Part shown: positions 12,245 to 62,322 of the stretch, in pieces
Layout of the letters: each line of letters starts with the position of its first letter
Position numbering within the stretch: position 1 is the stretch's first letter
Source of the DNA: Fasciola hepatica
Lineage: Eukaryota; Platyhelminthes; Trematoda; Plagiorchiida; Fasciolidae
DNA: 64,000 nt
Assembly (NCBI GenBank): GCA_948099385.1
Contig: CANUEZ040000140.1
Location: 1,054,001-1,118,000 of the forward strand
Direction of reading: 5' to 3'
The notes under the pieces: generated by a model
Database searches by the model: none
What the model was told of the DNA's origin: nothing
Seen by the model: the letters and a program-made list of their open reading frames with translations, nothing else
Translations under genes and position numbers: made by a program

Positions 12245-12340
12245 CTGAGAGGGTTTGTTAAATTTCGTTGGTTAAGTGTCCTTTGGACTCCACCTGTCAC
12301 GCACAAACCCCAGGACATTCGACCAATCCTGAACTCGGAA

Positions 12341-12385
12341 GCACCAGACTTAAGTTTCGCTCTCGCTAGAGCTCTTCATTGGTGC
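12341..12385 (-). ncRNA. type I hammerhead ribozyme-like motif, one core base altered
   Basis: Stem I: GCACCA pairs perfectly with TGGTGC (6 bp). The next seven bases, ATGAAGA, stand where the core CUGANGA belongs; only C3 (here A) disagrees, since position 7 is free. Stem II: GCTCT pairs with AGAGC around an AGCG loop, with the required G-C closing pair. Then GAAA, followed by a two-base-pair stem III (AC/GT) with a TTAA loop and the cleavage triplet GUC, directly before the 3' strand of stem I. Such a short stem III is typical of the minimal hammerheads of schistosome Sm-alpha and Penelope-like elements. C3 pairs with G8 in the active core, so this copy is probably inactive or very slow. 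Confidence 0.7.
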
Positions 12386-12405
12386 ATATACTCTGGCGCA
12401 CCCAC

Positions 12406-12456
12406 GGTTTGAACCCGGGCCTCTTCATCTCGAAGGCGTGTGTTGCCACTGAGCCA
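12406..12456 (-). promoter_or_regulatory. internal RNA polymerase III promoter (box A and box B)
   Basis: Box A lies at 12446-12456 and box B at 12406-12416, read on the minus strand. Both match the tRNA-type consensus closely and sit at normal spacing. The tRNA fold itself is imperfect (poor D-arm pairing), so this is a SINE head or tRNA pseudogene and not a tRNA gene. Confidence 0.6.
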
Positions 12457-12690
12457 CCCCGCTCCCGTCCAGGCTGACCCGAATCAGCAAGTTAAATTTG
12501 TTCAGACGTTGTGTCGAAAAGCATAATCACCGAAATCCCCTAACTACAACGTTTTCCAAAGAGTAAACCAAGATCGGACCTTGAAGATTTCCCATCACCA
12601 CACTATCAATCTATTTATGGATTTTTCCTTTGAAACGGATATTCACTGTGCATAAAAGAATGAGGTCCTTGATGTATCCAACAGGGATGG

Positions 12691-14149: not shown

Positions 14150-15255
14150 TATGAAGAGAGTAATAAAAGAACTACAAACGGTCTGGCCACCCCTTAGTCA
14201 TCTCTCAACCACCACCTGCATCAACGAAAAATGCATGCCGAGTAATCCTGACCGGGCCACAAAGGCCCAGTCCACTACTAGGGGTGACCGGCAACCGGAC
14301 TCTGAAACTTGGAATGGTGAACAACATTGGGTCTCAATAGGTCAGGTGTGGCAACCAACCGGACGACAATAGAACACTGTCTACCACCAGAGTAGCATGT
14401 GATGGCGGGGATTCCGACCTCCGAGGTGGTAATTAAACGCTCTAAACCACTCGACCGTCATCAGTCTCAGCCATCTTCCACTGCTGAGCTGAAGTGTTTT
14501 ATCAAATGATTTTGTTCGTGAACCTACGACTCTTCGCCAAACTTCAGCATTTCTTATACGGTGTTCCCACCAGATTCGAGTAATACTACGAAGACATCGG
14601 TGTTCAAATACCGACAATCTTTGTGTATTCTTCACCCTCAGCGGCCATGTTTCTGAACCATACAGAAGCAGTGGCCTGACGGCTGCAGAGTACACTCGAC
14701 CCTTGATAGATAGACGGATGTCATGTGAACCCCATGGATGACTCAGTTTGGCGAATGCCAAACGAGCCTTCTGTATACGCACAGACGCCTCATCCGATAT
14801 CCGACCACCGAGTGAAATGCAGTTTCCCAGATAACAAAACTCATCCACTCGGTCTATAGTCCCCCTAATACCGAAAGGTTTGGTGTCGGACCAATGCAAC
14901 AGCATCTTGCACCTTGAAGATGCAAAACGCATGCCAAACATTACTACGCAGTCCGTCAAGCTGTCTAGAAAAGCTTACAATTCACCTGAACCTTCGCTTA
15001 GAAGAACTGTGTCGTCCGCATATTCAAGGCGCAGCACTTTTCCGCCGGAAAAATTTCAATACCATTAGCTTCATATGGCAAAAAGGCGGTCTCTAGGACC
15101 ATATGAGTCACAAAATTAGAAAGAAAAGGAGACAGGGTGTCTGTGGAGTTTATGTGAATCCCATCGAAAGAGTTCAAATATAACGATGTGATCTGCATAC
15201 AAGCGCATTCGAGATAACTGAACATAAAATTCGTGTACACAACAGACAATCTCAC
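14150..15255 (-). mobile_element. LINE 3' part (RT palm to C-terminus), interrupted by a SINE
   Basis: Minus strand: SPFLSNF near 15110-15130, NGIEIFPAEK then (frame change) LEYADDTVLL near 15000-15040, MRFASSRCKMLLHW near 14890-14930, FCYLGNCISLGGRISDEA near 14785-14840, LSHPWGSHDIRLSIKGRVY near 14690-14745, LLLYGSETWPLRVKN near 14635-14680, and RSITRIWWEHRIRNAEVW near 14540-14590. YADD is intact, but a stop codon lies a few codons after it. After GRWLRL the element is cut by the SINE at 14257-14464 and resumes below it with RHAFFVDAGGG and a segment resembling KGG. From 14528 to 15037 it is about 99% identical to 61470-61978, with clear divergence on both sides (see findings). Confidence 0.85.
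14257..14464 (-). mobile_element. tRNA-derived SINE, copy 1 (nested in LINE)
   Basis: Minus strand: box A (GGTCGAGTGG, 14447-14456) and box B-like sequence (GGTCGGAATCC, 14409-14419), followed by a roughly 150-nt tail. Tail and head align with the elements at 60677-60895 and, for part of the tail, 20305-20396, so this is an interspersed family. The copy lies inside the LINE 3' region in the same orientation. The LINE protein similarity continues on both sides. No clean target duplication seen. Confidence 0.75.
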
Positions 15256-21551: not shown

Positions 21552-24500
21552 CCGTGGTAGAGGCTGCAGGGACCAGATTTTTACACTACGTTGAACGCAG
21601 GAACATCGCTACAAGTTCCAGCAGCCAACAGTAGCCTATTTCATCGGCTTTCACGTCGCTTTCGATTAGGCTAACCGGGAATGTCTGGGCGATAATGGAA
21701 TCCGATAAAGTCGAGGCTTCTGAGAGGATACTATTTGCCCACTAGGACGCGAGTCCATATAGATGGTGAAGAGGCCTCCGAGTTCACACTTACTGCTGGC
21801 GGCCGACAGGGCTATCTTCTTTCGTTAGTGCTATTTAACTACACGATCGACTGGATAACGAGACAGACATTGACGGACCATCCCGGTATTCCACTGAGTC
21901 AGGAGATGTACACCTCGGATCTGGAGTTCCCGAATGACATTGTCGTGCTAACGGACTCCCTACCACGCTTTAACCAGTCTTTGACCCAATCAGTTTCTTC
22001 TCCAAGTCCATCAGGCTAGAAGTAAACAGTTAATGTCAACTTGCCCAGGGCCATCAGCTCAGCAGTTGTCCATCAGTGATCGAGTACGTCCCATTATTCA
22101 AGTATCTAGACTCTACGCTGCTTCCAAACGGTCAGGCGAAGGATGAAGTATTACTCCGGGTAGACAACGCCAGGAAAGCGTTTCTCCGGCTACGACGGGC
22201 GCTGCGGACCCGTAGTGAAACCAACCTTAGGATTACGATGTGTATCTACCGCGATATACGCCCCGTACTCAGCTACGGCTGTGAAACCTGGCTACTGAGA
22301 GCCGAGGATACTAGAAAACTGGAGGTGCTTGGTCACTGGTGCATGCGACGTATTATGCGAGTAAATCGGCGCAACAGAGTACCCAAAGATAAGATTAGGA
22401 GACAGTGCTGTGAAATTGACGAACTCCTAAACTTCGTCCAATGTCGTCGACTGCGGTGGGTGGGTCATATCTTACGTTGACCCCAGACGGAATTAGCCAA
22501 ACAAACATTCCGCCCTGAAACCTGTCCCGGGTGACGTTTTCGCCTTGGTGGCCAGTTCAAAACTTGGATCAACACTGTCGAGAAGGATGTAGAGCGTCTA
22601 GGCTTACGGTCGGTCTATGGTTCCCGCCAGTGGAAAAAAAGATTGCGATTTGCCCCGCACTCTCTTTCAACCGCTGCGCGTGGTCAGCTATGATATTCAT
22701 GAAGTCGACTCATCCTCTAGCAGGAGACAGTCGCAAAAAAGTAAAGAAAGTAAGCTTTATTTTCGCTGCAACTGTCTTGAAGTTAAAATCAACAGCTACA
22801 GGTTTTTAACGTTGAAGGAATTGGTCAAGGGTTTGACCACTTTCTTGACGAGCAATCGAGAGAACGTGTCGGGCAAAAATCTGATTATTGGGTTTCGGTG
22901 GTAGAACCGAAGTATGCACATTCGGTGATATGTTTGTAAACCGAGGGCAAAACTAGATTACTAAGAACGGAAAGAAGACATATTGCGAGATGCAAGCATT
23001 CCGTTCACTCTTGTCGATCGCGTACGTGAAACGTGTCAGTTTATATGATACGGTGCATAGAATACACAGTGGAAAAATGTTTGTCACAAAGAATACAGCA
23101 ATGCGTTTGGAGTCTGTGGCTGATGCCAGGGAAGGCAGATTGTTTGCAGTGACTGTTTCTGTGCACAAACCGAGGGGAGTTTTCTGTCTGAGGCATTTGA
23201 AGGCAGCGGAGCACTGGCCTGAAGGCTGCAGAGTACGCTCAACCCTAGATAGACAGACGGATGTTATGTGGACGCCATGGATGACTCAGTTGACGGATCG
23301 ACCTTCGAAACGCATCAGTGCGATTCTTGATAATATTGGTTCCCAAGAGAACAGAGCGGAGTTGGCTAAGCGATTTGAGGCTACTGCAAGTCCTTGCTAA
23401 CCCGGCATTTCTGGGCCACTGCGATAAAACCAATAACGGCTTTCTGCGCCGGGAGCCTTGATGTTACGAAGGCCGGCGCCGCCTAATATGACTTCGGATA
23501 AGCTGGCGATATCCACTTGATAGTGGGTAGTATGCACTTATTCGCTGTCTGACTTCGAATGTCGGTAAGAGTTCTCACGTTCCAACATCTTATAGTGTCT
23601 TTAGGAGGTAAAAAGACCCAGTTCGCATTCTTGACAACACTGCCACTGAGATAGCACAGGATCACTGCTTCCCGGAGATGTCGTAGCATGGATAATAGAG
23701 CTTGTAGGAAACAGTCATGAAGTTTCATAAGTGTTTGATACGAGAGACGGCCCCAGCGTCACTCGGCTTTTTTCGAGGGTGCACCTCTGGCCTTTGCCTA
23801 ACCAAGTGCGGACTGCAAGGCAGAACTGTGTTGATGCATTTTTGTCGTTGGCTCTCTAAGAGCTCGTTCACCATTCGATTTAACTGAATCCAACCCAGTG
23901 ATCCATGCAGCCCTATTAGTTAGACAGATTTCCATCACAGCCGCTGAACTGTACAGTGAATCTCGTGTATTCATTCAGGGGTAACTGCCTTCGCATGCCG
24001 AACACCTCACCGAGGTTTTTGGACCTTGGTTACCCTCAACCTGGCCTAGGCCGCCTGTCGAGCGGTTTTCCGGGGTGTAGCAGCTGATGCATGATTCGCA
24101 TTCGTGGAGCCATAGGTGGGAGTTGGGTACCTGGTGGAGACGAGATGGAAGATACCCCAAGGGCACTTCAGTTTGCCAACTCAGAGATGCTACTCCAATC
24201 AGATACCCCATACACCCCATTATTGCGTTTTGACTAGAGGTGTGCACGGCGATTATGCTGAAAGTTTCCTTTCTTAACACAAACACTACACACAGCTTCT
24301 CGTACTGAGCGTTCAGCTTACCCACAGAAATAGCAAGATAAGTTGCTCACAGTCGAGGCTACATCCTCCGAGATTAGCGTTTGGAGTTTGATAAATTTAA
24401 AAGATTTTGTTACTTTTGATACGAAGCACAAAATGTATCACGGTTGTGTGATAAAGACTGTGCGAGCTAGTTAAAGTTACCTGGCGAGTTGAAGCTTTGT

Positions 24501-60904: not shown

Positions 60905-62322
60905 AGTCTCGAAGAGTTGGTGTGAATCGGTGTTTGTACCGATATACAAGAAGGGTGGCAGGTGCTCCTGTGAATATTATAAGGGAATAAGTTTGGTTAG
61001 CATCACATCTAAGCTGCTCGCTGGGTTTATTCCACACCGCTTATTACCTGTTAGAAAACACTGCTGGCGAGAGAATCAGGCTAGATTTAGACCTGGTCGC
61101 GGTTGCGTTGATCAGATCTTCGCTCTGCGACAAATTTAAGAATAAAGGCACACCTCTCATAGGCTCACTATCTCCGTTTTTCCTGAGCTTAAAGCGGCTT
61201 TTGTCTCAGTCGACCGAACAGTTCTCTGGGGCTGCCTCTTGTTGAAGAATGTATCAGAAAAATTCATTTCCATCATAAAGTCCGCTTTCATGAACAGCTG
61301 AAGCCGGTGCTTACGGTGCTCTTTCATCCGAGTTCACCACGAAAAGTGGTGTACGTCAGGGTTGCTTCCTTTCTTCTTTTCTCATTAACTTTGTGATTGA
61401 TATAGTCCCGGAGATCGAACATTTGTCATGGGGAGATAGTGGTATTGAACTTTTCCAGGGGCGAAAAAAGTGCTGCGCCTTGAATATGCGGACGACACAG
61501 TTCTTCTAAATGAAGGTTCAGGTGAATTGTAAGCTTTTCTAGACAGCTTGACGGACTGCGTAGTAATGTTTGGCATGCGTTTTGCATCTTAAAGGTGCAA
61601 GATGCTGTTGCATTGGTCCGACACCAAACCTTTCGGTATTAGGGGACTATAGACCGAGTGGATGAGTTTTGTTATCTGGGAAACTGCATTTCACTCGGTG
61701 GTCGGATATCGGATGAGGCGTCTGTGCGTATACAGAAGGCTCGTTTGGCATTCGCCAAACTGAGTCATCCATGGGGTTCACATGGCATCCGTCTATCTAT
61801 CAAGGGTCGAGTGTACTCTGCAGCCGTCAGGCCACTGCTTCTGTATGGTTCAGAAACATGGCCGCTGAGGGTGAAGAATACACAAAGATTGTCGGTATTT
61901 GAACACCGATGTCTTCGTAGTATTACTCGAATCTGGTGGGAACACCGTATAAGAAATGCTGAAGTTTGGCGAAGAGTCTTGGATTCACGAACCAAATCAT
62001 CAGATGAAGTATTCAAGTTCAGTTCACTAGGCAAAGATGGCTAGGGCATTTGTTACGCGTGTTCCATGACAAAATCTTTCGGTGCGCAATGTTCGCTGAG
62101 GCGGGTAACGGTTGGAAAATGAGTAAGGTTGGCTAGTCCATGACATGGAAGGAAGGTATAACAAACCTAACCTGTGGACCTGGCCATGTGGGGCGCGTTA
62201 GACTTCTTGGGTCGGGTCTTAAAGACCCTCCCACTTAGTGGTTATATACGTTAGAGGAAATGGCTAGCTGCCTTGATCAGTGGCGCTCTTGTATCCACAA
62301 ACTTACTCTATCGACTTCATAA
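60905..62322 (+). pseudogene. LINE reverse transcriptase domain, inactive
   Basis: WCESVFVPIYKKGGRCSCEY and KGISLVSITSKLLAGFI (60922-61035), ARFRPGRGCVDQIFALRQI (61081-61137), VFPELKAAFVSVDRT near 61175-61215 (motif A, catalytic Asp replaced by Glu), LEYADDTVLLNEG near 61477-61515 (motif C intact), MRFAS..RCKMLLHW near 61575-61620, FCYLGNCISLGGRISDEA near 61667-61720, LLLYGSETWPLRVKN near 61835-61880, and RSITRIWWEHRIRNAEVW near 61915-61968. The C-terminal tail with SMTWKEG-like and LASCLDQWRSCIHKL-like remains ends near 62322. A TAA closely follows YADD, as in the copy at 14150-15255. Several frames are needed to read it. Confidence 0.85.

Follow-up and report, generated by a model that had tools for sequence, protein, structure and literature searches.

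The genome of Fasciola hepatica harbors thousands of copies of a 451-bp repeat unit in which pol III-type promoter boxes precede a type I hammerhead ribozyme motif, and copies of this hammerhead element are inserted singly, in tandem arrays or as two inverted arms placed head to head. Since its insertion signature matches that of Penelope-like elements (PLEs), we conclude that it is probably a pol III-type retrozyme family mobilised by Penelope-like machinery, with self-cleavage, a circular RNA and the protein partner as predicted components of this account.

The window, i.e., the whole 64-kb stretch of DNA analysed, lies on contig C140 of the genome searched (656 contigs; 1,499,821,164 bases, 1.5 Gb) and carries a type I hammerhead motif at 12341 to 12385 on the minus strand, detected by pattern and by a relaxed Rfam match. 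Read from 12385 to 12341, the motif presents stem I (GCACCA/TGGTGC), stem II (GCTCT/AGAGC), a short stem III and the GTC triplet, with GAAA at 12355 to 12358 and C17 of GUC at 12347; from the hammerhead fold, the cut is predicted between 12347 and 12346. The core (12373 to 12379) reads ATGAAGA, where position 3 (12379) is A and nearly all other copies seen have C. In this regard, a sequence-only reading of the window had described three stems, GAAA and GUC on this strand, and a core departing from CUGANGA at C3 alone, and both descriptions were borne out. In the covariance-model check that it proposed, RF02275 (Hammerhead_HH9) matched 12338 to 12388 under relaxed filters, at 25.4 bits (E-values of 0.00038 for 451 bases searched and 0.054 for the whole window), but fell below its gathering score of 52, and no Rfam family reached its gathering score in the whole 64-kb window. 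Moreover, the full three-stem fold of the short hammerhead segment was not the minimum-free-energy fold, and the segment was no more stable than shuffles. The motif is part of a decayed single-arm copy of the element, at about 12251 to 12509 on the minus strand (blastn against the 451-bp unit, and alignments), which corresponds to unit positions of about 16 to 278 with 83% identity to the young unit, and either end may reach slightly further. This copy is old, with a changed catalytic base, and is predicted to be a dead or weak copy of the element.

At the genome level, a 241-base query returned 2,950 first-look candidates, and the 40 that were scored gave at least 43 matches, whereas a ribozyme pattern that accepted any base at position 3 and tolerated at most two mismatches found 4,915 places (2,280 plus 2,635), against no match of the reversed control in the whole genome. 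Furthermore, RF00163 (Hammerhead_1) gave 20 matches above its gathering score (15 of them in one array) in five of the eight related loci scanned, with none at that score in L002, L022 and L027. These results bear on the idea that the window motif is a chance resemblance, which the sub-threshold Rfam score of the window copy would favor. A one-mismatch hammerhead pattern requiring all stems had 12341 to 12385 as its sole match in the window, and it matched four times in 943 simulated 64-kb windows with the dinucleotide composition of the real one. On the basis of the simulated windows and of the existence of the family, a chance origin was rejected, and we assign it practically no probability.

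Position 3 of the core was C in 97 and T in three of the 100 pattern places listed, which were mismatch-free and from the first contigs, and it was C in all 50 copies aligned besides the window copy, many of these being tandem neighbours. Across the whole genome, 53 exact matches, including the window copy, had another base: T in 31, A in 13 and G in 9. The prediction of the sequence-only reading that the window copy is damaged at C3, to be checked against other genomic copies, was therefore upheld, as C predominates in them. A loose reading of the core in the fetched loci yielded 97 matches, of which four (L069, L072, L090, and L102) were chance-like and were set aside; the canonical core was found in 83 of the remaining 93 element reads, the other 10 being three CTGATGG (a core read by both arms of locus L008 in the 51-copy alignment), three GAAG, two with T at position 3, one CTGATAA and the window copy. 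With a stricter core pattern, which missed the window copy and the two T3 copies, 71 of 77 reads were canonical. Among 32 arms chosen by similarity, the hammerhead segment (unit 136–196) was the least variable of the six main unit segments, with a mean minority per column of 0.019 against 0.044–0.078 in the others. The sequence-only reading had named a lack of compensatory stem changes as refuting; in this set, none of 16 stem pairs was altered on both sides, and 97.0% of 399 stem cells were paired, no better than shuffles, but the copies were young, alike and likewise chosen by similarity, which keeps this result from being decisive. Type I hammerheads are defined by a core of CUGANGA and GAAA, three stems and a UH cut site; the family has this core and these stems, and self-cleavage is predicted for it.

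The unit was defined from tandem copies on contig C63 and has box A at 67, box B at 111, the hammerhead at 136–190 with the predicted cut after 180, and a hairpin (CGCAA-GTAA-TTGCG) at 287–300, which is also paired in the computed fold; folds of the element RNA were no more stable than shuffles. In the window copy, the box A-like element GGTGGCTCAGTGG (12446 to 12458) and the box B-like element GGGTTCAAACC (12406 to 12416), both on the minus strand, presumably fit the A-box and B-box consensus, respectively, and lie on the same strand as the hammerhead, 59–111 bases upstream of the predicted cut. Thus, a pol III-headed hammerhead repeat family, as the sequence-only reading had supposed, does exist in this genome, with thousands of copies, RF00163 matches and boxes A and B that, in the window, precede the motif on one strand (12458–12446 and 12416–12406). 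Its further claim of a tRNA head stood as regards the internal boxes A and B; as regards tRNA identity, ARAGORN called no tRNA gene in the window or in eight related loci, and the Rfam tRNA family did not match the 451-bp unit, for which only mascRNA (tRNA-like) was returned, at 24.0 bits and below its gathering score. Because of the lack of an ARAGORN call, the head is regarded as tRNA-like only. Separately, an Rfam tRNA match of 39.6 bits was observed on the minus strand at L022:197–269, a stretch that is not part of the hammerhead element found there.

Regarding insertion structure, the unit was mapped on a sample of 64 loci, the family numbering several thousand copies. The similarity search with the window copy supplied 24 of them (L002–L028, leaving out L013 and L028 as duplicates and L026 as the C63 array), and the pattern list supplied the other 40 (L068–L107, first contigs of the perfect-match list). 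Head-to-head pairs were defined as arms no more than 60 bases apart, and 3' ends were classed as short (unit 230–280) or long (unit 290–325). Under these definitions, the 64 loci contained 37 head-to-head pairs, four of them clipped by the locus end, and 30 other arms. The 33 unclipped pairs comprised 30 with one short and one long end, none with two short and none with two long ends, and three (L024, L083, and L089) in which one end was long and the other outside both ranges. L095 and L099 duplicate other pairs, as does the second L081 pair; with these left out, 27 of the 30 independent pairs were short plus long (about 266 and 308) and the other three were long plus out-of-range. In arms with at least 98% identity, short ends fell at 266–273 and long ends at 308–317. 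Array insertions behaved likewise, with one short and one long end in each of the three whose two ends were retrieved as separate loci (L071/L072, L077/L078 and L079/L080) and in the C43 array. Beyond the 60-base limit lay L074, with one long and one short end, and L082, in which both ends were short and the arms stood 238 bases apart; if L082 is a single insertion, it counts against the short-plus-long rule. The 30 other arms, some of which are array ends or remnants of broken pairs, had 25 short and 5 long ends. At L081 (C13:2319500–2323300) the pair is present twice as a palindrome, with about 2.1 kb between; an inverted duplication at this place or an artefact of the assembly may account for this.

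Short target-site duplications (TSDs) were seen: a stretch of at least 8 bases was common to the two outer flanks in 21 of the 30 independent pairs, compared with 31 of 870 cross-pairs. In the other nine pairs fewer than 8 bases were shared, and the longest chance cross-pair match was 13; in a mixed set of 24 loci, at least 9 flank bases were shared in 12, against 4 of 552 cross-pairs. Among the places listed, neighbours within 1 kb occurred 11 times in minus-plus order and never in plus-minus order. The distance from arm end to arm start was –7 to +5 bases in 32 of the 33 unclipped pairs and 55 in L006. Of 97 cDNA 5' ends, a count from which short arms may have escaped, none fell at the ribozyme cut; they were spread round the unit, the nearest at 176 and then 211, and thus give no sign of the cut RNA as template.

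Pol III boxes, TSDs and thousands of dispersed copies would also be expected of a conventional tRNA-type SINE mobilised by a LINE, its pairs being twin-priming products or nested insertions, and RTE-type LINE fragments are plentiful in the window. Indeed, a degenerate RTE-type reading frame gave 153 protein matches; among the 120 listed, the named ones came from flukes (Schistosoma, Heterobilharzia, Fasciola, Clonorchis, Opisthorchis, and Echinostoma), and the best RTE-type match had 69% identity over 36% of the query. As additional observations, the window contains, at 21700–53900, a tandem array of eleven 3,067-bp units (one spacing of 2,914), which have 99–100% identity over the compared stretches and include fragments of an RTE-type reverse transcriptase frame, and two inverted RTE-type reverse transcriptase pieces (14484–15041 and 61466–62022), 96–98% alike and about 46 kb apart. 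Twin priming leaves one 3' tail, whereas in the pairs each arm has an outward-facing 3' end of its own, one being short and the other long, and a single TSD usually encloses both. Besides, the query from the window had no other substantial match within the window, LINE fragments included, and the sole reverse-transcriptase element examined that follows the short-plus-long rule is Penelope-like. In view of this, we consider mobilisation by a LINE very unlikely, and Penelope-like mobilisation the better reading of the insertions.

The Penelope-like element in question belongs to the same genome. A profile search with PF01541 (GIY-YIG) gave at least 90 matches, with 150 of 302 candidates scored; the GIY-YIG open frames reached 869 amino acids, several stood in tandem with a spacing of 2,751–2,755 bases, and one Penelope-like reading frame carried both RVT_1 and GIY-YIG. 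One period of this element was mapped on 41 loci (L037–L067 and L108–L117), with no listed match in L042 and L116. All six scorable independent pairs (L041, L047, L048, L054, L057, and L062; L055 repeats L054) combined a short end (274–284) with a long one (341–355), while L051 and the two C8 loci, both of which appear twice in the list, stood outside the scorable set; the ends of the other unclipped arms were short in 17 cases, long in 7 and neither in 3. Regarding sequence, blastn between the hammerhead element and the Penelope-like element in 30 loci gave no match over 25 bases, the score of a sensitive local alignment of the two was reached by 118 of 200 shuffles, and 10 further Penelope-like loci had matches of 11 to 23 bases only, the best of which (E 0.016) lay outside the Penelope-like copy. 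A minimal hammerhead-like motif also occurs in the Penelope-like element, with the core TTGAAAA (e.g., L067:670–730), found in 8 of the 10 further loci (the other two had no motif) and in most full motifs elsewhere, with L049 (CTGAAAA) and L041 (TTGATAT) as exceptions. In this core, U3 replaces C3 and A8 replaces G8, which may represent a paired exchange.

According to the sections of the literature consulted, copies of Penelope-like elements stand in tandem or in head-to-head inverted orientation, have short TSDs and optionally carry a short tail at the 3' end of one inverted pLTR (PMC3846280). A PLE protein cleaved and extended both target strands in vitro, and the PLE tail, which corresponds to the segment between two reverse-transcription start sites, is considered unique to PLEs (PMC11167929). 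In the hammerhead element, too, head-to-head arms usually lie inside one TSD, with the tail on one arm. A variant of this reading retains Penelope-like mobilisation and derives the pairs from self-priming on an antisense template instead of two nicks, as proposed for head-to-head repeats with palindromes in bdelloid elements (PMC3846280, in part). However, the arms are usually unlike in both 5' extent and 3' end and yet meet closely, which is expected of two separate cDNAs that were joined, and extension of both strands in vitro (PMC11167929) also speaks against self-priming; we hold it to be unlikely, and two separately primed cDNAs remain our preferred reading.

Under the two-nick reading, tandem copies would be transcribed by pol III, or by read-through, into multimeric RNA; arms exceeding one unit in length occur and, in the circular unit, TTTT is absent from the sense strand, so multimeric pol III transcripts are allowed. 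The ribozyme would then cut the multimeric RNA, and ligation may circularise the product. Since 451 bp is too short to encode a reverse transcriptase/GIY-YIG protein, the element is taken as non-autonomous, and a Penelope-like GIY-YIG/reverse transcriptase protein would nick both target strands and prime one cDNA per nick, one starting at the short site (about 266) and the other at the long site (about 308), which flank the hairpin; the two cDNA 5' ends would finally be joined head to head. The hammerhead element might thus stand to the Penelope-like element as Alu stands to L1. We also lean, with some reserve, towards a more specific proposal, a Penelope-dependent SINE with obligate asymmetry, in which the two strands use different RNA starts across the hairpin. 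The accessible part of PMC11167929 reports no difference in start site between the two strands, and one start of each kind per double insertion is a sharper statement than that account.

The growth of the arrays admits another view. The C63 array (C63:13673357–13702742; L026, L029, L031, and L032) reaches the contig end, spans 29,386 bases and contains 64 full units, of which units 50, 56 and 62 carry the variant A97G, and units 16 and 21 the variant A333G; besides, C10 has 15 places on one strand with 454-bp spacing (as listed by pattern search), and contig C3 has, among the places listed, five plus two at 452 bp and six plus two at 451 bp. Head-to-tail satellites often grow by unequal exchange, and long arrays built at the DNA level, with no circular RNA template, would explain why both variants recur; indeed, the six-unit period of A97G points to some DNA-level amplification. 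On the other hand, 58 of the 64 C63 units are identical to the consensus, and the array ends examined lie at the usual short and long sites, three arrays and the C43 array having a TSD. Unequal exchange as the source of the long arrays is hence a substantial possibility, to which we give somewhat less credence than to a circular RNA template.

Among known systems, Sm-alpha has a layout with a pol III-type tRNA-like head, and we take the outer GGA/UCC helix and the small bulge of the unit to resemble its ribozyme. Like Sm-alpha and Sj-alpha of Schistosoma, the hammerhead element has a digenean host, a type I hammerhead and thousands of copies. For Sm-alpha, a copy number above 10,000 has been estimated, and 2,342 of 2,368 tRNA-Gln-TTG-like loci were classed as SINE (PMC2770079, as excerpted); likewise, a tRNA in schistosome repeats was noted by the authors who described retrozymes (PMC4918200, as excerpted). 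The likeness, compared by description, is one of layout only, and the hammerhead element differs in its 451-bp unit, the missing tRNA call and the tail rule, of which the literature consulted in part makes no mention for Sm-alpha. More broadly, no description of a two-ended tail in a hammerhead SINE was found in the mostly open-access literature consulted, including the available part of PMC8490949.

Metazoan non-LTR retrozymes, according to excerpts of PMC7229834, likewise have type I hammerheads and short tandem repeats, from dimers to long arrays. The 451-bp tandem period of the hammerhead element and its type I motif agree with the repeat size given for retrozymes (about 150–450 bp), whereas its G+C content of 51.7% exceeds the value of under 50% described for the known metazoan ones, and the pol III-type head sets it apart from them. 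Tandem and inverted insertions, a one-arm tail and a short TSD are likewise reported for PLEs with pLTR hammerheads (PMC3846280 and PMC11167929, both in part). In contrast to PLEs, the hammerhead element is far too short for a reverse transcriptase or an endonuclease, it has only short matches to the local Penelope-like family, which counts against a tie between the two, and it has a stem III, while the minimal type is described for PLEs in the consulted section of PMC7761336.

PLEs have been regarded as a strong candidate mobiliser of metazoan retrozymes from shared traits and coexistence (PMC7229834, in the part consulted), whereas the Penelope tie of the hammerhead element is an insertion signature. 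With a signature called unique to PLEs in 27 of 30 pairs, the candidate-mobiliser proposal for retrozymes becomes a testable link. Furthermore, the short-plus-long rule bears on why one arm has a tail, which the literature consulted in part calls optional without giving any such rule, and thousands of natural insertion products in F. hepatica are usable for working out Penelope-like integration.
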